Virus record (IMG/VR): IMGVR_UViG_3300043409_000722
Coordinates: 1 to 27,034 of that record
DNA length: 27,034 nucleotides
Source of the DNA: a virus
Strand: one strand, 5' to 3'
Shown here: positions 7,561 to 26,582 of the stretch, piece by piece
Numbering within the stretch: position 1 is the first letter of the stretch
Layout of the letters: each line of letters begins with the position of its first letter
Position numbers and translations under genes: made by a program
The notes under the pieces: generated by a model
Seen by the model: only the letters and a program-made list of their open reading frames with translations
Database searches by the model: none
Told to the model about the DNA's origin: nothing

Positions 7561-8577
7561 TCAATAAACCCAATTTATGGATATGTCGCCCTTAATTTTT
7601 TGATAAGAGCGAACGTAAATAGTAAAACCAGTTCCAGCAACTACATCGCCAGTGGTAACAGATACGCCTAGAGAGCCAAGATACTTATGATCGTTAGCCG
7701 TGTAGTCGCTTGTTGCTGTGGTGCCAATTGACGCGGCTACTTTAGACCCTGCCAATATTCCAGTCTGACCGGTTACTACTAGCTGCGCCTCATTCGTTTC
7801 TGTTGCCCCAAGGCTTACAGTTGAGGTGCCAGAGGTTACGCTACCGCCTCCAGATGCCGCGTTAAGAACGCCGGCAGTCAATGTTAAGTTAGTGCCTAGC
7901 GTGATCTCTTCAATATCACCAGAAGCTGCCGTGCTGCGCCCCAGAAGCTTATTAGTCGCAATGTTCTGCATCTTGGCAAACGTTACGGTATCAGCAGGTA
8001 TTGTTAATGTTATTGCTGTAGTGCCTGAGCCTGCCGCGTCACCCGTAACCGTTATGGTTTGGTTCGCAGTGAGATAAGCGCCTGCCGGTTGCTTGCTGTT
8101 AAAAGTGTTCCAATCTGTAGCTGTTAGTTTACCACTTTGCGCGCCGGTTGCGTCTTGAAGCGTTATGGTTATCGCGGGCGTTGTGGTCGCTGTTGCTACG
8201 CTACCAGAAAACCCGTTAGCTGTTACTACGCTTGCGCTGGTTACTGTGCCAATGTTATCGGTTGCGCCTGTAGCCACGCCTGCAAGCTTAATCTGCATTG
8301 CGCTGGTCATTACCCCTGCATTAGTGCCATCTGCTGCCGCTAGAACCGCATCGGTGCCGGTATCGCTTATTACTGTTGTAGTGGTTGCCGTGTAGCTGGC
8401 CGAAAGGTTAGTCGCTCCCCCCGCCCCGCCAATAGCGGTAAGAGCCGACCAAGTACTAGCACCATTGCCGATCTTTAATGTGTTGTTGGTGGTGTCGTAG
8501 CCAGGCTGACCGTTCGCTAAAACAGGATTCACGCTTGCCCAGTTTGCCGCCGTATCGCGCTTTAATTGAATAGTCAT
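7561..8577 (-). CDS. Tail fibre-like protein, 338 aa
   Basis: Residues 1-50 match the short beta module common at the N-terminus of phage fibres and receptor-binding proteins: I-Q-L-K-R-D-T-A-A-N-W, then N-G-Q-P-G-Y-D-T-T-N-N-T-L-K-I-G and W-S-A-L. The shaft (about 60-255) is Thr/Ala/Gly-rich with fibre-typical motifs, for example NKLLGRSTAASGDIEEI. The last 75 residues form a separate C-terminal head ending in F-T-I-Y-V-R-S and I-S-I-N-W-V-Y, a common fibre tip pattern. Its ATG overlaps the preceding 68-aa gene by 4 bp (ATGA). It most likely binds the host surface. At 338 aa it is short for a complete receptor-binding fibre and might be one of several. Confidence 0.75.
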   Translation of the reverse strand: MTIQLKRDTAANWASVNPVLANGQPGYDTTNNTLKIGNGASTWSALTAIGGAGGATNLSASYTATTTTVISDTGTDAVLAAADGTNAGVMTSAMQIKLAGVATGATDNIGTVTSASVVTANGFSGSVATATTTPAITITLQDATGAQSGKLTATDWNTFNSKQPAGAYLTANQTITVTGDAAGSGTTAITLTIPADTVTFAKMQNIATNKLLGRSTAASGDIEEITLGTNLTLTAGVLNAASGGGSVTSGTSTVSLGATETNEAQLVVTGQTGILAGSKVAASIGTTATSDYTANDHKYLGSLGVSVTTGDVVAGTGFTIYVRSYQKIKGDISINWVY

Positions 8578-8780
8578 GCGCCACCATCGTCAAACGAAAA
8601 CACACCGCCAGTGCTTGCCGATCCGTCATCTAATCCAAAGCTGCCAGATGATGAGCCAACACCGCTATACAGCTCTAATATTGAATTCCTAACCTGTGCG
8701 CAAAAAATGTGTAAGTTTTGCAGCGGTCTAAATTTGTCATCGACAATAGGCTGGTTTCTATCAATGGGCCTAAGCTCCAA
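8574..8780 (-). CDS. Small conserved phage protein, 68 aa
   Basis: Starts M-E-L-R-P-I-D-R-N-Q-P-I-V-D, a pattern I recognise from small proteins that sit between the DNA-stabilisation (gp10-like) gene and the fibre genes in many podoviruses and some siphoviruses. A helical middle follows (LHIFCAQVRNSILEL), then a Gly/Ser/Asp-rich flexible tail. It overlaps the gp10-like gene by 11 bp upstream and the fibre gene by 4 bp downstream, which supports real, coupled translation. Function unknown; a tail-assembly or connector role is only a guess from position. Confidence 0.6.
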   Translation of the reverse strand: MELRPIDRNQPIVDDKFRPLQNLHIFCAQVRNSILELYSGVGSSSGSFGLDDGSASTGGVFSFDDGGA

Positions 8781-10242
8781 TTTCCACCTCCAACCTTGCG
8801 AATACCTTCTTGATAGGTTCGCTTATATCAAATCTAAAACAAGCTGAGCGCGCAAATCGACCAAGCGCAGGCCATGAAATCGCTGAATAGTAATCACCGG
8901 TCGAACCCATCTCGCGGGATATTTCTGGCGAGTAAGTTATTCCACCATCTTTAGATACGCTCATGCGCACAACAGGTGCCGAACCTTGACCAGTCACTGG
9001 ATTAGTGCCGGTTTCCATTTGTAATTGCACCTGAGCGATACTGAACGGGCGGCCAGTGTTATCTATTGCCTCTGTAGTGAAGTAAGAGCGGATTTCATCA
9101 TCGTATTCTTCAAAAATATCTTCACTCATCAGTCCGATAACGCCGGACAGTTCATCGCCCACTAATCGCACCGAGTAGGCGTCAACCATTGAGGTGACGC
9201 GCCACGGTTGCGGCTGGTAGAATCTGTCTACGCTCTTGCGCTCATGCCAAAGGCCGGTAACAGCGTCATAAACAATGGTGCAAACACCCGGCACCGTAAT
9301 CGAAACAAACGAATGACCGCGCTCTGCCCACTTAATCGCGTAGGCGTTTTGTAGCTGAGCAATCCCACCTTGATAAATAAGATTATCAATTGCTGCGCTT
9401 GATATTTTCTCAGGCAATCCACCGCTTGTTGCATAAACGGCAGGCTGCTCATTAACTCCCGCACCTATCCACATTAGATTGCCATTTAGCTCAACCATTG
9501 AGTGGGGTGCTGTGCATCCCTTTTGCTGGATAGCTGACGGGATGGTCTCAAACTGGAACCCAGCCCCTTGAATGTTTTGGTATGGCTCCATCGTTGAAGT
9601 TCCGAACACATACACAAGTCCGTTAAGCGATTTAATAACTACAATATTGTCGGGGTCTGACTCGGCCACCGTGAAGTCAGTGGCAATGTATGAAAGCCCG
9701 TCACGCAAATCAGACTGGAACCAAGTATTTGAATTAAGTTTTGGGAATAGGAAATAACCGTATTCAAAATCTACACCAGCAACAGGGCCATCAAAATCAG
9801 CATCGCTAATTTGCACCAAACCACCTGCAACGGTGTAAACCCAAGCATTAAACTGGTTGGCGTAATCAGGTGCCACAATAACAAGCTGAACACCGTTATT
9901 CGAGAAATGAACTCTAGCCGTTCCATTGATCGTTTCCGCCCCGCTTACATCATTAGCCGTGTAAGTGCGCACACCAGCCACATCGGTCGTGTAGGTTACG
10001 TTGTAGAGTTTATCCCCACACACAAAGTACGGAATGCCAGCCATTGACGTGCCGCCACGGTTAAACGCATTCACGGATGTGTCTGCAACCTGCTCAATAC
10101 CAGCCACACCCACCAACACACCATCAGCAATATCTTTGCCTTGCGGTATGTGAGGGAAAAGGTTCACGCAATCAATCGCGGCAACCGTCAGCGATTCATC
10201 ACGATTAAAACCTTTTGCAATTGGCAGCTTAGTTCTTGGCAT
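8770..10242 (-). CDS. P22 gp10-like packaged DNA stabilisation protein, 490 aa
   Basis: The N-terminus matches the gp10 family: a short lead, G-F, then A-I-D-C-V-N-L-F-P-H-I-P, a glycine-rich V-G-V-A-G-I loop and A-G-I-P-Y-F-V-C-G-D-K-L-Y. Length is close to P22 gp10 (472 aa), and the protein is beta-rich throughout, as expected. In P22 this protein binds the portal/gp4 ring and is the hub on which the tail needle and tailspikes assemble, closing the head after DNA packaging. The preceding gene (gp4-like) overlaps by 1 bp, the same order as in P22. I do not see a recognisable tail needle (gp26) gene in the window. Confidence 0.85.
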   Translation of the reverse strand: MPRTKLPIAKGFNRDESLTVAAIDCVNLFPHIPQGKDIADGVLVGVAGIEQVADTSVNAFNRGGTSMAGIPYFVCGDKLYNVTYTTDVAGVRTYTANDVSGAETINGTARVHFSNNGVQLVIVAPDYANQFNAWVYTVAGGLVQISDADFDGPVAGVDFEYGYFLFPKLNSNTWFQSDLRDGLSYIATDFTVAESDPDNIVVIKSLNGLVYVFGTSTMEPYQNIQGAGFQFETIPSAIQQKGCTAPHSMVELNGNLMWIGAGVNEQPAVYATSGGLPEKISSAAIDNLIYQGGIAQLQNAYAIKWAERGHSFVSITVPGVCTIVYDAVTGLWHERKSVDRFYQPQPWRVTSMVDAYSVRLVGDELSGVIGLMSEDIFEEYDDEIRSYFTTEAIDNTGRPFSIAQVQLQMETGTNPVTGQGSAPVVRMSVSKDGGITYSPEISREMGSTGDYYSAISWPALGRFARSACFRFDISEPIKKVFARLEVEIGA

Positions 10243-15042: not shown

Positions 15043-15061
15043 AAGGGGTTCCCTCGGTTAT

Positions 15062-15445
15062 TTAAAAATCTGATTTGCTTACTTCAAACTCACCACTTGC
15101 AACACCTGAAACTTCAATATCGGGGATGAATTTGAAGTCTTTATACTCTGGCACATCGGGGTTGAAGCCTGCGAAACGGTTGTAAATAACCACATCGCCA
15201 ACTTTTACGCCCCAAATTTCATGCGCATCCATTTTGTAGCGTGGGTCATTAGTTGGATACTTGGAAGGATCACACCCAGCCACACCAATAAAAGCAGTAG
15301 GGCCAATATCAACAACACGACCAAGGCCGATTGCCTTATTCTCACGCTCCGCATCCCCTAAAATAATACCGCCAGCACTTACAGTCTTAACCTTTACAGG
15401 CTCAACCAATAGCTTGTGGCCTGTTGCTTTAATCGTTACCGTCAT
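15062..15445 (-). CDS. GroES-like co-chaperonin, 127 aa
   Basis: Cpn10 features in order: G-H-K-L-L-V-E-P-V near the start (GroES L-x-D-R-V strand), a mobile loop at about residues 18-37 with S-A-G-G-I-I-L (GroES G-G-I-V-L, the contact with GroEL), then G-L-G-R-V-V-D-I-G-P, W-G-V-K-V-G-D-V-V-I-Y and a final Y-K-D-F-K-F-I-P-D-I-E-V (I-x-D-x-D-I-L-A equivalent). GroES is about 97 aa; the extra residues lie in an insertion between the two halves (around 50-75) and a C-terminal tail. Phages such as T4 (gp31) replace host GroES to fold capsid protein. The location next to scaffold suggests the same use here. GAGGTG precedes the start. Confidence 0.85.
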   Translation of the reverse strand: MTVTIKATGHKLLVEPVKVKTVSAGGIILGDAERENKAIGLGRVVDIGPTAFIGVAGCDPSKYPTNDPRYKMDAHEIWGVKVGDVVIYNRFAGFNPDVPEYKDFKFIPDIEVSGVASGEFEVSKSDF

Positions 15446-15456
15446 TAATCACCTCT

Positions 15457-15903
15457 TTAGTTGGACTCTAAACAAAAACGAACATAAAGCTGAACCATTT
15501 CAGACTCTTGAGAAAACTCAAGCGACCTAAAAACCAAATTACCGGAAGCTGATTTATTTTTATAAAGACCGTCTCTAATTATTGCCTCAAAACAAGAAAG
15601 CACTTTGAATTGTGTCCTTTGCTTGTCCCCATCCAGTATTATTGACTTGTGTAGTTTGAAAGCATGAACTAAATATGGCGTTTTATATTCTGTATATGCG
15701 CATTGCGGACCAATGTTGCAGCATCCAATATCAGACAACCTGCCAGATAGCATATCTAAAAAACGCTGGTCTTTTAGTAGGTCTATCTTAGAGTTTTGGT
15801 AAAAATCAACAAAGTATGGCTCTGATAATTTTGATGGGTGACCGTCTATCTTTGCCTTTTCGTTCGCGTCAACTTCTGCCGTATCTTTATTGGTTACTGT
15901 CAT
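15457..15903 (-). CDS. Unknown phage protein, 148 aa
   Basis: Mixed helical protein with two adjacent cysteines (about residue 61, D-I-G-C-C-N-I-G) and a third nearby (Q-C-A-Y-T). It overlaps the preceding 75-aa gene by 17 bp and ends 11 bp before the GroES-like gene. I recognise no domain. It is part of the packaging/head unit by position only. Confidence 0.55.
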   Translation of the reverse strand: MTVTNKDTAEVDANEKAKIDGHPSKLSEPYFVDFYQNSKIDLLKDQRFLDMLSGRLSDIGCCNIGPQCAYTEYKTPYLVHAFKLHKSIILDGDKQRTQFKVLSCFEAIIRDGLYKNKSASGNLVFRSLEFSQESEMVQLYVRFCLESN

Positions 15904-16114
15904 CTTCTACCTCTTCTGGTTTCCACTCTAAAACTTTCTCTAATATCTCAATCTTAGCTTTGCGGATTAGCGCATTCATGCCAATTTCTTCTATGGTTTT
16001 GCCGAATCCATGATTCACAACGTGAGATTGAAGACCCTCGCGCATCTCTTTTAGAAACAGGCGAGTGACTTCGTTGTCTTTCCAAAGTAAATAAGCGTCT
16101 TTACTCAGCGGCAT
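15887..16114 (-). CDS. Unknown small phage protein, 75 aa
   Basis: Helical, charged (for example LFLKEMREGL and KAKIEILEKVLEWK), with a short acidic tail. Overlaps the 62-aa gene by 14 bp and the 148-aa gene by 17 bp. Similar small helical proteins often follow the portal gene in podoviruses, but I cannot assign a function. Confidence 0.55.
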   Translation of the reverse strand: MPLSKDAYLLWKDNEVTRLFLKEMREGLQSHVVNHGFGKTIEEIGMNALIRKAKIEILEKVLEWKPEEVEDDSNQ

Positions 16115-16289
16115 AAGGATCCCTCTCTAGCAGACCATACTTATCACCATATTTTTCTAGCTGAGCTTTTGTAATGATTGTATGGGTCGGTTTTAGGTTG
16201 ACTGGCTTGCCGTTAACAGCCCTTTGCCTTGCAATCTCTTCAATTACAGACTCAAAGCTAGATTCACTAAAGTCTTTATTCGTTTGCAT
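16101..16289 (-). CDS. Unknown small phage protein, 62 aa
   Basis: Starts M-Q-T-N-K-D-F inside the last 14 bp of the portal gene. A helix (SSFESVIEEIARQRAV) is followed by N-G-K-P-V-N-L and a second short helix with Y-G-D-K-Y-G-L-L. No recognised family. The overlaps on both sides support expression. Confidence 0.55.
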   Translation of the reverse strand: MQTNKDFSESSFESVIEEIARQRAVNGKPVNLKPTHTIITKAQLEKYGDKYGLLERDPYAAE

Positions 16290-18576
16290 TTGTCTCTCCT
16301 ACTGCTAATTCCATAGCCTTGTCCATCTCAGCACTAACAGCGCTCGTAATGGCTAGGCCGTTGTTTACTTTCTCGCTAATGGCCTTCTGTACGCTTAGCA
16401 GGGTATCGGCGTTGACTTTCTTAACCTCAGCCAATACTTTGTCCATTGTCGCCAATGTTTCCTGCTTGCTTAGCTCAAACTCCGCATCTTTGCGCTGCTC
16501 GCCTTTCAGCAATATCTCGGTTTGGGCGGTTAATAGCTTCTCTTGAGTCTCAGCCATCTTGTTAGCCTGAGCTTGCTGTTGCTGCATGGCTTGCATGTTC
16601 GCCTTATCTTCCGGCGACATCTCGGCTTCGTTCGGGAATATCTTATCGGTGTTCTCAGAGCCAATGCGGTTGAAGTAATTCTTAATAATCTCGACCGCGT
16701 TACCGCCTGCTTGAATTACCAATGGCACCTGCTGAATTTCAGCCTCAGCTAATAGCATGCGCTGCATCTTGCTCGATGTTTCGGGGTTTGCAGTACACGT
16801 AATCTGGATGCCTTCCTCTTCAAAGTCCTCACTGAATACCGCTTCATCATCGCCCACGATTTCAATGTATTTATCGCCGTTGAAGTAGTCGCGGTCTAGC
16901 ATGTAAAGAATGCGGAACTCTTCAGCCATTGAATCGGCGATCATTGCGTTATGCGCTGTCTGTTTCAGCATGGATTCTTGAATCATTGCCAATGCGGTAG
17001 TTGGGGCGGTGTTAGCTTGAATGCCTGCATCTACGTTAGCGCTGAAACCTCTCGCCTGCTGCTCCATCATCTGCAGGAGCATGAATAGCATCTGGCTTGG
17101 CTCTTTGTATGGGAACGGCATTACAGATTGCATAAGCTCTTGCGCGGGCACGTCTGTTTGAATGAACTCAGCGGGATTAACGGCAAACTTACCACCTTTC
17201 ATCTTGAACCCTTTAGCAACCCATCCACCGTTCATCGTTGCCAAATCGCCATTGTTCAATAGCGTGTTTGTGGTCTTATTAACCCCCATCGACATAGAGC
17301 CAATCAAGTGATAATAACCAACATCTAGGAACGTCCCATCAAAACTAGGGATTAGCCCGTACTTGGTCAGCATTGCTTTAGGCTCAATGCGCACCACTTC
17401 AAATCCGCTTAGGTCTTCGGGGTCAGGGTATTCAGCTTTAATGCCGAACTCTTCAACATCCAGATCTATGCGTTGACGCTGCATCTTTTGAGCGTCTAGC
17501 AATTTCATGGGCTTGCTATCTTCAAACTTAACAATGATAGATTCTGCTGAGTATCTAGCAACGATACGAACTACCGTGGAGCTACCAACGTGAACAGTAA
17601 CGATATAGGGCTCTTCGATGCCGTCATCGTCTAAGTCTAGCCAGCAATAACGCTTATAGAATTTGTCGGGGTTGTCTTCGGTAGTTTCTGAGTCGCTATC
17701 CTCATCGCTTCCGTAGCCAGACTCTTGCCCTTCGGCATATACATCGCCTTTCCAGATTCCAGAACGAACACGCAGATCGAATTCAGACTTGGTAAATGCG
17801 CAAATATGCGTAAACCCGCGCCCATTGTTTAAGTCATCTGTATTTTGGTTGACAACGAAATCAGGCCACTTGATAGTTTTTGATACACAACGACCAAGAG
17901 TATCATCGTAGTACGTCTCTTTGATGATCGTTCCAACCAAGGGCAATGCGTAGAATAGGCGCTTCTGCTCTTTCTTCCACTCTGGCATTTCGTAGTTAAT
18001 CTGCCAGTTCAGCAGCTCAGCACAACGATCTGCCTTGTCGTATTTGTTGCGCATGGCTAAGCGCTTTTCTTTCACTGTCTTTTCGTTAGCTTGTATCTGG
18101 GTCTGCATTTGCTGCACTACTGCGTCAAGCTGTGCGGTATCGGCTCCAGTCTCTTTCATTTGCTGCAACTGCGCAACGATAGGCTCTAGCTCTGATTTAA
18201 GCTGATTAGTCTGTGATGCCTTACGGTCGATTACATTCTTAACCGTCTTAGCGCCAATCACATCAGCGCCCACTAGGTTTAGCTCTCGCATTACCTCTAC
18301 AGCAGCGCGATTTCCAAATGTGTTAGCCGCTTCGGTGAGTATCGTAGACTTGAAGTTAGCGGCGCCAGCCCACGGCTCAGCCTTGGCCTTAAACTCAGGC
18401 TTGCAGAGCTTCACGCCTTCTGTGACGCAATCCTCCCAATCCTTCATCGTGGTTTTGTCTTGGTCAGTGTGCTCGATAACCATTCGAGCTATTTTAGCTA
18501 GCGTTTCTTTTTCTAGCTTTGTCGCTATGTTGGTTTCGCCTACATAGCTTACGATTGATTCTATTGTCATGCCCAA
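16276..18576 (-). CDS. Portal protein, 766 aa
   Basis: Follows large terminase with a 10-bp overlap. Size fits P22-type portals (725 aa in P22). Early residues P-W-A-G-A-A-N-F-K-S are a widely shared podovirus portal motif. A coiled coil at about 120-175, a V-V-N-Q-N-T-D-D-L-N-N-G-R-G-F segment, and a long Gln/Lys-rich helical C-terminus (about 645-750) agree with the P22 barrel that extends into the capsid. The portal is the dodecameric ring through which DNA is packaged and released. Start M1; M3 is an equally possible start. Confidence 0.85.
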   Translation of the reverse strand: MGMTIESIVSYVGETNIATKLEKETLAKIARMVIEHTDQDKTTMKDWEDCVTEGVKLCKPEFKAKAEPWAGAANFKSTILTEAANTFGNRAAVEVMRELNLVGADVIGAKTVKNVIDRKASQTNQLKSELEPIVAQLQQMKETGADTAQLDAVVQQMQTQIQANEKTVKEKRLAMRNKYDKADRCAELLNWQINYEMPEWKKEQKRLFYALPLVGTIIKETYYDDTLGRCVSKTIKWPDFVVNQNTDDLNNGRGFTHICAFTKSEFDLRVRSGIWKGDVYAEGQESGYGSDEDSDSETTEDNPDKFYKRYCWLDLDDDGIEEPYIVTVHVGSSTVVRIVARYSAESIIVKFEDSKPMKLLDAQKMQRQRIDLDVEEFGIKAEYPDPEDLSGFEVVRIEPKAMLTKYGLIPSFDGTFLDVGYYHLIGSMSMGVNKTTNTLLNNGDLATMNGGWVAKGFKMKGGKFAVNPAEFIQTDVPAQELMQSVMPFPYKEPSQMLFMLLQMMEQQARGFSANVDAGIQANTAPTTALAMIQESMLKQTAHNAMIADSMAEEFRILYMLDRDYFNGDKYIEIVGDDEAVFSEDFEEEGIQITCTANPETSSKMQRMLLAEAEIQQVPLVIQAGGNAVEIIKNYFNRIGSENTDKIFPNEAEMSPEDKANMQAMQQQQAQANKMAETQEKLLTAQTEILLKGEQRKDAEFELSKQETLATMDKVLAEVKKVNADTLLSVQKAISEKVNNGLAITSAVSAEMDKAMELAVGETNANE

Positions 18577-23459: not shown

Positions 23460-23605
23460 TTTGCACCTCTTTTGTGCTTCGCACTGTTTTTGTTCGTTTT
23501 CTGTTGAAATACGGCTTGACCAGCAAAACTCCAAACACTACTAAAAACTTCAATAAAATCAATGAAGCCTGTCGTCAAAATATCGTAGTTTTGCGGCCTA
23601 CCCAT
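23456..23605 (-). CDS. Small protein, 49 aa
   Basis: Begins M-G-R-P-Q-N-Y-D-I-L, has a hydrophobic middle (IDFIEVFSSVWSFAG) and a basic end (NSAKHKRGAN). The stop overlaps the TTG start of the next gene by 4 bp, which is the best sign that it is real; the ribosome binding site is poor. Function unknown. Confidence 0.4.
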   Translation of the reverse strand: MGRPQNYDILTTGFIDFIEVFSSVWSFAGQAVFQQKTNKNSAKHKRGAN

Positions 23606-23617
23606 TTGATTACGCTG

Positions 23618-23815
23618 TTACATTCTTTCATTCTGGTCTTTTACTGGCGCAATAGGAGCGTCAACAACTGACAATAAAGTGTGCGCCATATACCTGACAT
23701 GATCTTTACATAGCCTTACTTTTACACCAATAAAATTAATTTCAATGACTTCTTCATCATCACAGAAAAAAGCGCATCGCCCATATTGGTGCCTTGAGCC
23801 TTGTGCTATTTTCAT
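23618..23815 (-). CDS. Small Cys-containing protein, 65 aa
   Basis: Start ATG 23815 overlaps the stop of the PAPS-reductase-like gene (ATGA) and has AGGAAAG close upstream. C-A-F-F-C and a later L-C-K-D-H could bind one zinc. No named family. The coupling suggests that it works with, or is at least co-translated with, the preceding reductase-like protein. Confidence 0.55.
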   Translation of the reverse strand: MKIAQGSRHQYGRCAFFCDDEEVIEINFIGVKVRLCKDHVRYMAHTLLSVVDAPIAPVKDQNERM

Positions 23816-24558
23816 CTTCTTTCCTCGCAGAATATCCCGCATTCAAAATTCATGTTTTTAAGTGGCCTGCCCTTAGCTTCTGGCGGTAGCTCGGTCAATG
23901 AAATTCTATCGCCTTTGTATCTAACCAGCTTCGCGCCAATACGGTCAGACTGTACCCGCCTTTCTTCAAAAACTTCGGGGTACTCTGTTCTAACCAAATT
24001 CCAATATGTCGGGCTGGTGGCCTTAACACAGCCAATACAATTGGCATTCGGCAGTCCTTTCTTGTACGCCATTGGTAACTCAATTCCAGCTGCTTTAATA
24101 ATATTGAAGCAGTCGCCCTTAGTTAGCTTTGCGTCAATCAAAACAGGCAGGATAGCGCGCTCTGTTAAACAAAAATTATCATGGCGGCCAATTTCATCAT
24201 AAGTAAAACCTAAAACCGTATGGTGAAATTTGTTAACTCTTTCCCACTGCTGGCGAGCAACCTTTTTCAGTTCGTGTGTGCATGGCGCACCATTAACCGC
24301 ACTCATAAACTTTCTATCGTCCCAAACTTCAACGCAACTGCCAGCGGGGTATTTTGAGTTTCGGCAATCCTCAATTTCAATGCCAAGCCATTTTTCTACA
24401 TCTTTCAAAAATCTGCGGTTATCCGCATCTTCTTCTTTAACGTAGTTGTTCACAATTCTTACATTGTGCGTGCTTCCGTATTTTTCTAGTGTTTTCATAG
24501 CTACCACTGCGCTAGCTGCACCACATGAAAACCACACTACAATCGTATCTCTATCCAT
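23812..24558 (-). CDS. PAPS reductase-like (PP-loop) protein, 248 aa
   Basis: Start 24558 (a longer frame reaches 24618 but would cross the attC-like site). Residues 6-20 hold a PP-loop-like sequence: V-V-W-F-S-C-G-A-A-S-A-V-V-A, where the usual SGGxxS reads SCGAAS. V-L-G-F-T-Y-D-E-I-G-R and C-I-G-C-V-K-A-T (about 180) and a final C-G-I-F-C match the phage family annotated as phosphoadenosine phosphosulfate reductase. Such proteins adenylate or activate a substrate; related DndC acts in DNA phosphorothioation. The true phage substrate is unknown. It begins 18 bp after the leftmost attC-like site, so it is the first gene outside the array. Confidence 0.75.
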   Translation of the reverse strand: MDRDTIVVWFSCGAASAVVAMKTLEKYGSTHNVRIVNNYVKEEDADNRRFLKDVEKWLGIEIEDCRNSKYPAGSCVEVWDDRKFMSAVNGAPCTHELKKVARQQWERVNKFHHTVLGFTYDEIGRHDNFCLTERAILPVLIDAKLTKGDCFNIIKAAGIELPMAYKKGLPNANCIGCVKATSPTYWNLVRTEYPEVFEERRVQSDRIGAKLVRYKGDRISLTELPPEAKGRPLKNMNFECGIFCEERR

Positions 24559-24576
24559 ACCATCCCGCCAAAAGAA

Positions 24577-24661
24577 ATGTAACAAGGTTATGAAAAGGAC
24601 GCGGTTTAAGTCGTCCAAATATTCTAAATCTTACTGCGCACCGTTTATAACGGCGTTATAC
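24577..24661 (+). repeat. attC-like site 1 (85 bp)
   Basis: Outer boxes ATGTAAC (24577-24583) and GTTATAC (24655-24661). Left arm reads TAAC-AAGGTTATGAAAAGG; the complement of the right arm reads TAAC-GCCGTTATAAACGG, so the two pair apart from one extra G on the left side. The TAA stop of the 116-aa gene lies in the GTTATAC box. Matches the attC plan (R'', L'', L', R' with extrahelical base). Confidence 0.65.
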
Positions 24662-25006
24662 GGCCTCAGGAACGCAGGTATTCGCGTGCTTTTTAATCCA
24701 TTCAATAGCCTCTCCAATCGTTTTGCATTCGCTTTCACGAACGTCACAATTACCACTAGCAAGCCAAAAATTACCAGCTTTATCTCTAAAGCCTGTCTCT
24801 ATATCTCGCCAACCAAACCCAGTGCGCCTATCAAGAACGGTTATACTTCCAATGTCACAATGAAACGCTTCTTGGTAGTTGTCGTCATACTCCCAATTTG
24901 GGTCATTGTTCATTTTTACTGAATGAAAAATGTCGCGCTGAAATGGTGAACTTAAAACAACCCCAGCCCAACATTCTTTTCCGTGTTCATTTATGTATCG
25001 TTCCAT
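24656..25006 (-). CDS. Cassette-encoded unknown protein, 116 aa
   Basis: Start 25006 has GGAG 8 bp upstream; earlier Met at 25012 is possible. It begins M-E-R-Y-I-N-E-H-G-K-E-C-W-A and contains W-E-Y-D-D-N-Y, F-G-W-R-D-I-E-T and a C-terminal helix (GEAIEWIKKHA). Soluble alpha/beta protein, no known family. The TAA stop is part of attC-like site 1. Carried between sites 1 and 2. Confidence 0.6.
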   Translation of the reverse strand: MERYINEHGKECWAGVVLSSPFQRDIFHSVKMNNDPNWEYDDNYQEAFHCDIGSITVLDRRTGFGWRDIETGFRDKAGNFWLASGNCDVRESECKTIGEAIEWIKKHANTCVPEAV

Positions 25007-25027
25007 TTTCATCACTCCGAAAGTTTC

Positions 25028-25111
25028 GTATAACAAAAAGTTGCAGCCGATGGTGACCCAAAGGCTAATTAAATTTCTACTCCCCGCAACGGGCTGAACT
25101 TGGCGTTATGT
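25028..25111 (+). repeat. attC-like site 2 (84 bp)
   Basis: Outer boxes GTATAAC (25028-25034) and GTTATGT (25105-25111). Left arm TAAC-AAAAA-GTTGCAGCC, complement of the right arm TAAC-GCCAA-GTTCAGCC: perfect apart from the extra G. This is the clearest copy and closely parallels the aadA1 attC arm, which has the same extra base after GTT. Confidence 0.75.
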
Positions 25112-25114
25112 GTA

Positions 25115-25261
25115 TCAGGCCGTAAGCGAGTGAATTAACGGTTTTACAAATAACCAAAGCCACGGTACAACCAAACAAATCACAACCCCAATTACCACTC
25201 CAAATAAAATAAGTGCGGGTATAACCCCATCTAAATTAACCATGCCTTTTTGATTTTTCAT
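25115..25261 (-). CDS. Small single-span membrane protein, 48 aa
   Basis: Begins M-K-N-Q-K-G-M-V-N-L-D-G, then one hydrophobic span of about 25 residues (VIPALILFGVVIGVVICLVV, followed by PWLWLF) and a short basic-polar end. Its stop lies 3 bp from the right box of attC-like site 2. Such small membrane proteins in phage accessory regions sometimes affect superinfection or host membranes; nothing here shows that. The 104 bp upstream (25262-25365) hold only tiny frames and AT-rich sequence. Confidence 0.5.
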   Translation of the reverse strand: MKNQKGMVNLDGVIPALILFGVVIGVVICLVVPWLWLFVKPLIHSLTA

Positions 25262-25365
25262 TTTCTGTTTACCTTAATAAAATATATAGTTAATAGAGTC
25301 GTTGCTACACACCAAGAAAAACATAAAAGATCAATGAAATTCCAATAATTCACTTCGGTAGCTCC

Positions 25366-25384
25366 ACATAACAAGGCGTTACAT
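25366..25384 (+). repeat. Collapsed attC-like site 3 (19 bp)
   Basis: ACATAAC and GTTACAT outer boxes separated by only AAGGC; the inner arms and loop are absent. The flanks match the other sites: TTACATTCACTGG on the right is shared with site 5. Most simply an attC that lost its hairpin by deletion between the short repeats. It is likely no longer a recombination substrate. Confidence 0.55.
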
Positions 25385-25567
25385 TCACTGGTCTGGCATG
25401 TTTGCTGACTTTATTCTGCCAGCCTCTTCCTCATCCCAAAGAATTCCAGTCAATGCGTCTATCACCATATTCGGTGAGGCGGCACACATATTTGCAAGCG
25501 TTGAGCAAAGGAAGCTTGCAGTTCTATACTCTCGTTGTTGCTCTTCATCGGTCATTGGCATCACCAT
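25385..25567 (-). CDS. Cassette-encoded unknown protein, 60 aa
   Basis: Likely starts at ATG 25567 (or 25561 or 25555); the longer frame to 25597 would include the attC boundary. Helical: T-D-E-E-Q-Q-R-E-Y-R-T-A-S-F-L, then N-M-V-I-D-A-L-T-G-I-L-W-D-E-E-E. No clear ribosome binding site. The stop abuts the 19-bp site 3. Function unknown. Confidence 0.45.
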   Translation of the reverse strand: MVMPMTDEEQQREYRTASFLCSTLANMCAASPNMVIDALTGILWDEEEAGRIKSANMPDQ

Positions 25568-25588
25568 GTAAGCTGTATCGCTATGTAA

Positions 25589-25671
25589 ATGTAACAAGTC
25601 AATATTACGGACGGGTCAAGAATTCCGCATTTCTAATTTGTAAGAAGCCGCCGCAAATCTCGGCGTTACAC
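25589..25671 (+). repeat. attC-like site 4 (83 bp)
   Basis: Outer boxes ATGTAAC (25589-25595) and GTTACAC (25665-25671). Left arm TAAC-AAGTCAATATTACGG, complement of right arm TAAC-GCCGAGATTTGCGG. Pairing is weaker than in sites 2 and 5, but size and box spacing agree. The left flank is identical to site 6 for 17 bp. Confidence 0.6.
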
Positions 25672-25842
25672 TCAACCAATCATCTCTATCGTTTGTTTTG
25701 TTGAGTGCGCGTGGAGCAGCGAAACAATAAGACCTTGCGGCACACCAGAATCCTTTGCCTTGTCTATAATTTTTGCTAATTCTTGATCAAGCAACCTTAA
25801 TGTGCTAAGGTGCTCTGACTTTAACGGCGTTATTTCTTTCAT
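25672..25842 (-). CDS. Cassette-encoded small helical protein, 56 aa
   Basis: Strong GAGGTG site 5 bp before ATG 25842. Begins M-K-E-I-T-P-L-K-S-E-H-L, then charged helices (LRLLDQELAKIIDKAKD) and a final S-L-L-H-A-H-S-T-K. The good ribosome binding site and the stop exactly at the right box of site 4 make it a real gene. No family recognised. Confidence 0.6.
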   Translation of the reverse strand: MKEITPLKSEHLSTLRLLDQELAKIIDKAKDSGVPQGLIVSLLHAHSTKQTIEMIG

Positions 25843-25856
25843 AAATCACCTCAAAA

Positions 25857-25940
25857 ATGTAACAATCAGTTGTAAGCGATGCGGCAAGAGTGCGCCAATC
25901 GCTGTTTATAAAAAGGCACGCTTAAACATGGGCGTTACAT
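25857..25940 (+). repeat. attC-like site 5 (84 bp)
   Basis: Perfectly complementary outer boxes ATGTAAC (25857-25863) and GTTACAT (25934-25940). Left arm TAAC-AATCA-GTTGTAAGCG, complement of right arm TAAC-GCCCAT-GTTTAAGCG, with one extra G on the left. Spacer lengths 5/6 equal those of the aadA1 attC. Confidence 0.7.
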
Positions 25941-26216
25941 TCACTGGTTAATCACACCAAAAACGGCGCGCCACATTTTAGAGTCGCAATCGTGACCCAA
26001 TGCTTTGTGCTCACTACCGCGCTCACGGTCACGATCATCACGCTTAATTTCTTCATCCAAATCACGCTTAATTACTTCTTTTGCTCGCTCAGGAATATTG
26101 CCCCAATGCTGAACTAAGCTTTCTGCAAAGCTGTGCGTTGAAATAGTCATGCGGCCTAAGTAGTACCGAAAAGAACCTATCCACAACATATCCAAATCAT
26201 CTTTTGAAAATTTCAT
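25941..26216 (-). CDS. Cassette-encoded phage-type protein, 91 aa
   Basis: Start at ATG 26216, because the longer frame to 26252 begins inside attC-like site 6. Contains F-R-Y-Y-L-G-R-M-T, a run of charged helix (EVIKRDLDEEIKRDDRDRER) and a final C-D-S-K-M-W-R-A-V-F. I recognise the (F-R-Y-x-L-G-R-x-T ... I-x-x-x-I ... C-D-x-x-x-W) pattern from small proteins of many phages and plasmids; function unknown. Its presence suggests that the cassettes were filled with phage genes, not host genes. Confidence 0.6.
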   Translation of the reverse strand: MKFSKDDLDMLWIGSFRYYLGRMTISTHSFAESLVQHWGNIPERAKEVIKRDLDEEIKRDDRDRERGSEHKALGHDCDSKMWRAVFGVINQ

Positions 26217-26234
26217 ATTTTGCTCGCTATGTAA

Positions 26235-26318
26235 ATGTAACCAGTCACTCAAAGCGACGGTTCGTAAATTTGTGTTTTTATCACTTGTGTACCGCAGCGC
26301 TTTAGCTCAACGTTATCC
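26235..26318 (+). repeat. attC-like site 6 (84 bp)
   Basis: Outer boxes ATGTAAC (26235-26241) and GTTATCC (26312-26318). Left arm TAAC-CAGTCA-CTCAAAGCG, complement of right arm TAAC-GTTGAG-CTAAAGCG: six unpaired bases and then a paired arm with one extra C on the left. The TAA stop of the 89-aa gene lies within the right box. Confidence 0.65.
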
Positions 26319-26582
26319 ACAAGCCTCACAAAAACCTACAACGCTAAAATAAAACGATTCTGAGAAACACATCCAATAAATGAATCCAGTCATAAACACA
26401 ATTGAACCAATAGCAAAAGCTGATTTTACTATGCTCTTGTCCTCGTAAACCTCCCAATCTGCCATTATTTCATTCCCTTTCTCGTCTACGATGATCCACG
26501 GCTTGTGGCCTTTGTATGCGGTCTTAATCTCGCCTGTGACCTTGTTTCTGATCTTAAACTCTGTGCTTTTGTCTATGTACAT
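26313..26582 (-). CDS. Small membrane protein, 89 aa
   Basis: AGGAGC ribosome binding site 5 bp before ATG 26582. The first 50 residues are a soluble domain of short strands (FKIRNKVTGEIKTAYKG, W-I-I-V-D-E-K-G-N-E), then one hydrophobic segment (SAFAIGSIVFMTGFIYWMCF) and a short tail ending C-E-A-C-G. Its stop is inside attC-like site 6, but no further site lies to its right, so it marks the array edge. Function unknown. Confidence 0.6.
   Translation of the reverse strand: MYIDKSTEFKIRNKVTGEIKTAYKGHKPWIIVDEKGNEIMADWEVYEDKSIVKSAFAIGSIVFMTGFIYWMCFSESFYFSVVGFCEACG

Follow-up and report, generated by a model that had tools for sequence, protein, structure and literature searches.

A probable integrase-less integron in a podovirus-like phage, with an attC array, an attI-like site and inverted gene cassettes

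The stretch of DNA analysed here, called the window below, is an IMG/VR virus record of 27,034 bp which encodes homologues of terminase, the major head protein and a head-closure protein, with the genes on the - strand. At 24577-26318, five full palindromes of 83-85 bp and one collapsed copy alternate with single short ORFs (Table 1), just as a first reading of the letters alone had described them. The outer boxes RYYYAAC and GTTRRRY and the paired L''/L' arms given in that reading were confirmed in the window sites, and the one extra base on the left arm of each full copy was found at the same position across the aligned sites; beyond this base, a second unpaired A on the left arm is invariant in the aligned sites. 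The conserved extra-helical left-arm bases that an attC site should have as orientation signal are hence in place. Cassette 0 starts with the R' box GTTACAT at 23617, the exact partner of ATGTAAC, the R'' box of S1. This cassette and its attI-like start, which extend the array to the left of S1, were absent from the first reading, and so was the orientation, namely that the attC top strand lies on + and the cassette genes on -.

Table 1. Features of the cassette array in the window.
Feature	Position	Strand	Remarks
attI-like site, array left end	23588..23623	+	predicted crossover between G23617 and T23618
Cassette 0	23618..24655	+ (top strand = attC orientation)	two genes, both on -
Cassette 0 gene	23618-23842	-	74 aa
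Cassette 0 gene, PAPS-reductase-like	about 23812-24559	-	phrog_424, E 9.6e-40
S1, full attC	24577..24661	+	R'' ATGTAAC 24577-24583, R' GTTATAC 24655-24661; R2 63.9 bits (S1 in R2 training)
Cassette 1	24656..25105	+	450 nt including attC S2 up to G
Cassette 1 gene	24656-25012	-	protein homologue in Vibrio phages, about 49%
S2, full attC	25028..25111	+	R1 21.7 bits, E 0.0014
Cassette 2 gene	25115..25261	-	probable membrane protein of 48 aa, judged by eye
S3, collapsed attC	25366..25384	+	R'' ACATAAC, AAGGC, R' GTTACAT; hairpin lost
Cassette 3 gene	25385..25567	-	short, from ORF list; start codon uncertain
S4, full attC	25589..25671	+	R1 14.2 bits, E 0.11
Cassette 4 gene	25672..25842	-	56 aa, phrog_15190, E 2.1e-14; homologues in Pseudomonas phages
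S5, full attC	25857..25940	+	R1 14.9 bits, E 0.07; R boxes perfectly complementary
Cassette 5 gene	25941..26216	-	91 aa, phrog_11947, E 7.1e-16 (ORF with upstream start)
S6, full attC, last site seen	26235..26318	+	R1 26.5 bits, E 8.4e-5
Gene flanking right end of array	26313..26582	-	homologues adjoin array end in G001 and G016

On the - strand, three window cassette genes have phage homologues or match phage families; for the gene of cassette 3 no family match below E 0.1 was obtained. The gene of cassette 2 has a relative in phage G005, with an 84% identical stretch between the cassette bodies, and L013 holds a 48-aa ORF similar to the cassette 2 gene as well as the attC type of S4, which is also present in others. 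Near-identical S6 arms are held by L005, and both S2 arms nearly match the attC of blaVIM-2, a plasmid sequence. As for the collapsed S3, its R'' pairs perfectly with the R' of S2 and its R' with the R'' of S4; with both boxes kept and no hairpin, cassettes 2 and 3 may now move solely as a pair. The gene at the right flank is matched by tblastn at 67% in G001 (40928-41194) and at 52% in G016 (9672-9884). Homologues of cassette genes also occur in L068 and in Vibrio and Pseudomonas phages, yet with no nearby attC match at the thresholds used, which means that such phage genes exist outside cassettes too.

For the identity of the palindromes, the covariance model R1 was trained solely on 13 attC taken from plasmid-borne class 1 integrons, and the entire window was scanned on both strands with filters off. 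The four top window matches are S6, S2, S5 and S4, every one on +, and the attC-model search that had been proposed as a check thereby gave significant matches in the window (S6, E 8e-5; S2, E 0.0014); S1 was not recognised by R1 in the whole window on either strand. In the reverse direction, the model R2 was built from 15 phage sites, S1 among them, and recovers plasmid attC, at least 11 of them and on the correct strand, with E-values from 5e-8 to 2e-3. As a positive control, R1 recovers the three known attC of phage TJE1, and it recovers arrays in relatives of the window phage as well. The E-values of these models are rough. Pairing in the arm helix amounts to 91.5% over the 15 phage sites, both sides have changed at 10/11 arm pairs, and the observed percentage paired and covariation score were reached by none of 500 shuffles. 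Folding each site as single-stranded DNA, which had also been suggested, gave no support by itself, the energies alone being not significant (z -0.5 to -1.75). An Rfam search and a megablast of the window against INPHARED both returned zero matches. Considering the reciprocal recognition by the two models, the covariation and the signature of cassette exchange described below, the proposed attC identity is well supported, and as far as sequence can tell the window palindromes are genuine attC sites; recombination of their folded bottom strand by IntI has not been shown. The identity would have been refuted if no full site had a significant attC match, or if the same palindromes were scattered singly across unrelated phages without cassette exchange, and neither is the case, since the matches are significant and the sites form multi-cassette arrays with demonstrable exchange. 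With at least two attC and no intI nearby, the array meets the definition of a CALIN.

In an array built by IntI, the R' box of a site belongs to the next cassette, so that R' and R'' should match within a cassette and not within a site. Judged by the four variable box positions, 79 of 86 within-cassette box pairs are perfect with 10 mismatches in total, whereas permutation of these boxes gave a mean of 136 mismatches and a minimum of 99, with 0/10,000 permutations as low as observed; within sites there are 167 mismatches vs 170 expected, which is random pairing. The held-out contigs have 7 mismatches within cassettes vs 44 by permutation (minimum 25). In the window, a single mismatch in cassette 4 is the only departure from perfect pairing in cassettes 0 to 5. 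S3 fits this chain, but the automatic count omits it and treats the cassettes on its two sides as one, with two mismatches. Such matching within cassettes together with random pairing within sites is the pattern left by cassettes that are cut at G^TT. It also bears on the explanation that we are dealing with terminators or with regulatory repeats of another kind in the phage, attC-like by mere convergence. The palindromes are in fact intergenic, where inverted repeats are often terminators, but convergence of this kind is hard to reconcile with models of the phage sites and of plasmid attC each recognising the other's sites on the correct strand, with the conservation of the extra-helical bases, and with boxes that follow the cassette and not the site, and we consider it hardly credible.

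Single cassettes provide the most direct evidence. Cassette 1 is found in phage contig G011 with the same length and 97.1% identity, where the identity with the window ends at G^TT on both sides and the flanks agree at 17/60 and 24/60 positions, the latter including the shared box. It lies after attC S1 in the window and after attI in G011, and the rest of the phage differs. Likewise, a cassette common to G003 and G005 is 94% identical over its entire body, starting at G^TT. The definition of a gene cassette, i.e. a TTRRRY-gene-attC-G unit cut at G^TT, is met, and these alignments are direct traces of transfer, which show at the sequence level that the cassettes have moved between phages as discrete units. 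Phages are prone to recombine and several of them have attC types in common, hence one may suppose that cassettes are shuffled by homologous recombination between attC repeats and not by a site-specific reaction. This is very unlikely, however, because the breakpoints fall at G^TT even between an attC and an attI that share the core only, and because attC travels whole with a single cassette.

The usual arrangement of a gene cassette, in which the ORF is parallel to the attC top strand, is not met in these phages. The longest ORF is antiparallel to attC in 83 of 87 cassettes (27/29 in the held-out set), with few cassettes carrying it parallel, and all 10 ORFs are antiparallel in the arrays L149, L171 and L172 from two MAGs, whereas in chromosomal arrays from the bacterial family of these MAGs the parallel arrangement prevails, above all for long ORFs. 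In 56/87 cassettes the ORF ends with its stop codon at or within the R' box. The possibility that array orientation merely tracks the main phage operon was rejected, as arrays are flipped relative to terL in G004, G008 and G010, and as G011 has arrays in both orientations with the ORFs still antiparallel to attC. Since flipped arrays keep antiparallel ORFs, the inversion is a property of the cassettes.

Relatives were gathered as 66 terminase relatives and through attC-arm pattern searches, leading to whole contigs or flanks, and attC arrays were found on about 25 virus or MAG contigs. R2 detects about 105 sites in 15 contigs, window included, and 37 further sites in 8 contigs outside all training; arrays are also present in two MAGs from a single bacterial family. 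Of 19 relatives, found by terminase or pattern, that were examined over their full length, 5 had no sites. The carrier backbones vary, for example L172 (G047:C205) encodes a portal and a terminase of its own, and tblastn found nothing in it that matches the window structural proteins. Exact arm-pattern matches in the viral contigs L082, L084 and L089 were dropped as they lacked model support, and of seven matches to the arm pattern in GTDB genomes, only that of a Cellvibrionaceae MAG had strong model support.

Several arrays have features of their own. The contig L172 is a podophage contig in a Cellvibrionaceae-family MAG, with an array at 15347-16344, an attI-like site at 15061 and inverted cassettes. 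In a Cellvibrionaceae MAG, L149/L133 (G020:C152) has inverted-cassette attC at 7706-8666 on the - strand of L149 and an attI-like site at 9017; this element also encodes a large primase-like protein and an integrase of the phage/XerC-like type, and may be a phage satellite or an integrative element. G011 (L104/L105) has arrays at 23666-25614 (+) and 29804-30160 (-), in opposite orientations and each with an attI-like site. The right ends of the arrays in G004, G008 and G014 have a conserved flank, TATCTCTTATCAACAATAA, and in G008 and G014 the right-end R' box begins with GCT, not GTT, as if the distal site were inactivated. The array on the G151 chromosome (L173, L174) repeats cassettes of uniform size, about 368 bp, in which the longest ORF stays below 60 aa on either strand.

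The 87 cassettes fall into 85 protein families, and a scan of 86 cassette proteins matched 62 PHROG families. The named cargo includes a TAGT glycosyltransferase (L106, 12075-12929), the restriction-alleviation protein Lar (L110, 6702-6974), a NUMOD4/HNH nuclease (L094, 13758-14450) and HTH repressors; the first three are possibly counter-defence or selfish cargo. This diversity is to be weighed against a static CALIN, that is, a chromosomal integron fragment captured once and then inherited as ordinary phage DNA without ongoing exchange. Such a fragment would agree with the lack of integrase in the phages and with the collapse of S3, and phage attC clusters have previously been read as captured fragments (PMC9892861). 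Nevertheless so many families across related phages, one cassette at 97% in different array positions of different phages, ORFs inverted relative to chromosomal cassettes, and many cargo genes that match phage families all speak against it, and we regard it as quite unlikely.

When the partner of the first R'' was sought leftward, a sequence ending in ...GCCGTATATTCCGCT|GTTA was found to be conserved at most array starts; the attI profile is 36 nt long. In the window, the attI-like site scores 37.8 with a leave-one-out PWM vs 8.7 for the next best. Among the 7 held-out contigs whose left side is present, 6 have their best profile match 150-460 nt to the left of the first attC, with scores of 24-44 vs at most 13.5 for the next best and a shuffled maximum of 7.5; no attI-like site was found in this held-out test for L198, which has a single attC. 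In genomes from the family of a Cellvibrionaceae MAG, the profile detects chromosomal attI that lie upstream of intI by 173-329 bp and diverge from it (scores 30.1, 29.3, 22.4 and 21.7), and a score of 27.3 was obtained near the intI contig of G047, a MAG that also holds phage-type arrays. For the other intI genes tested in genomes of this family, the attI differs and the profile match is weak or absent. Resting on the 36-nt profile match, we take the phage site to be homologous to the chromosomal attI beside intI in Cellvibrionaceae-family genomes. Of the components of a complete integron, attI is thereby represented by a homologue at the array start, the function of which has not been shown. 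An extra attI-like site without detected attC is seen in G009 at position 31045 (+) with a score of 25.6, perhaps an empty platform.

The other component, intI, is missing from what we could see. The integron integrase TIGR02249 was not found in 28 phage records (20 + 8), and the PF00589 recombinase was not found in 15 contigs with arrays, among them several of 37-44 kb; IMG/VR contigs are mostly fragments, so a missing integrase gene is not excluded. The platform might accordingly be run by a recombinase of the phage itself, unrecognisable or off the sequenced contigs, as a gene can escape detection when contigs are incomplete; but the absence of PF00589 even from the longer contigs and the resemblance of the phage attI to a host attI make this unlikely. 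With no recognisable IntI in the phages, recombination is most likely carried out by the host IntI. The sequence-only reading had suggested that phages capture genes through the integron integrase of the host: the cassette exchange stands, and the role of the host integrase is supported only indirectly, by the lack of IntI and PF00589 in the array phages and by an attI homologous to that beside chromosomal intI.

An integron is a bacterial gene-capture platform consisting of a landing site and swappable one-gene cassettes. We interpret the region as an integrase-less integron in a podovirus-like phage, with an attI homologue and six cassettes (0-5) that recombine via host IntI, and assign this reading a probability of roughly 0.85, no activity having been shown. 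The host IntI would act in trans during infection, while the phage DNA is partly single-stranded, and the attI end would be where new cassettes are taken up. The host is probably a Cellvibrionaceae-like Gammaproteobacterium, which is a reasonable guess from MAG bins and attI similarity and not a demonstration. Since the ORFs point towards attI and are antiparallel to attC, they are unreadable from an integron Pc promoter at attI; presumably they are transcribed from the phage side, i.e. from the far array end towards attI, and inverted cassettes may have been selected because no others are read in phage operons. The cargo is a highly varied set of small accessory genes of the phages, including counter-defence-like ones.

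Phage attC clusters as such are not new. A total of 17 phage CALINs were described by Qi et al. 2023, who demonstrated for three virulent phages that IntI1 recombines attC with attI1 (PMC9892861), and the view that a phage attC array is unusual has to be tempered by these published clusters. Like the window phage, TJE1, P12002L and PH101 (PMC9892861) carry clusters of attC and no integrase to go with them. The genes of TJE1 run parallel to attC, unlike those of the window phage and its relatives. In the passages considered, no conserved attI or inverted cassettes are described for the virulent-phage clusters, and neither are lineage-wide arrays or phage-to-phage cassette transfer (PMC9892861). 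The chromosomal integrons of the Cellvibrionaceae family have attC recognised by R2 and an attI homologous to the phage site, but they possess intI, their attC are mostly about 115 bp, and their ORFs are mostly parallel. Class 1 mobile integrons have the same attC architecture, G^TT cut and extra-helical bases, and differ by the presence of intI1, Pc and attI1 and by parallel resistance cassettes. Another known departure from the standard integron geometry is that of Treponema, with its atypical intI orientation (PMC3607928); there intI is reversed relative to attI, whereas in the phages the ORF is reversed inside each cassette and intI is absent. In the open-access literature, which leaves out subscription papers and preprints, we found no phage array that has an attI of its own but lacks intI, no consistently inverted phage cassettes, and no cassette transfer among a phage lineage. 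To sum up, attC in phages is known, and what is new, as far as found, is the attI-bearing, integrase-less platform with inverted cassettes.

A broader reading, which we favour only slightly over its negation, is that of a phage-specific integron, in which several lineages keep attI without an integrase, share a private pool of inverted cassettes and borrow the host IntI; taken jointly, it also includes at least one integrase/primase element in a Cellvibrionaceae MAG, and the swapping concerns accessory and counter-defence genes. Bacterial cassettes rely on a promoter on the attI side, and the phage cassettes, being opposite to these, pose a puzzle of orientation. If the private-pool reading is true, the inverted genes would be silent in a host integron and expressed in phage operons, so that phage and bacterial pools would be separated. 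Lar, the TAGT glycosyltransferase, the repressors and the homing-type nucleases would tie the pool to phage-host conflict. More generally, if the integrase-less integron is true, isolated reports of phage attC would become a recurring, lineage-wide and modular platform of gene exchange in viruses that needs a host enzyme, and such a platform would offer a testable route for the fast turnover in phage accessory regions and for the flow of cassettes between viruses and bacterial integrons.
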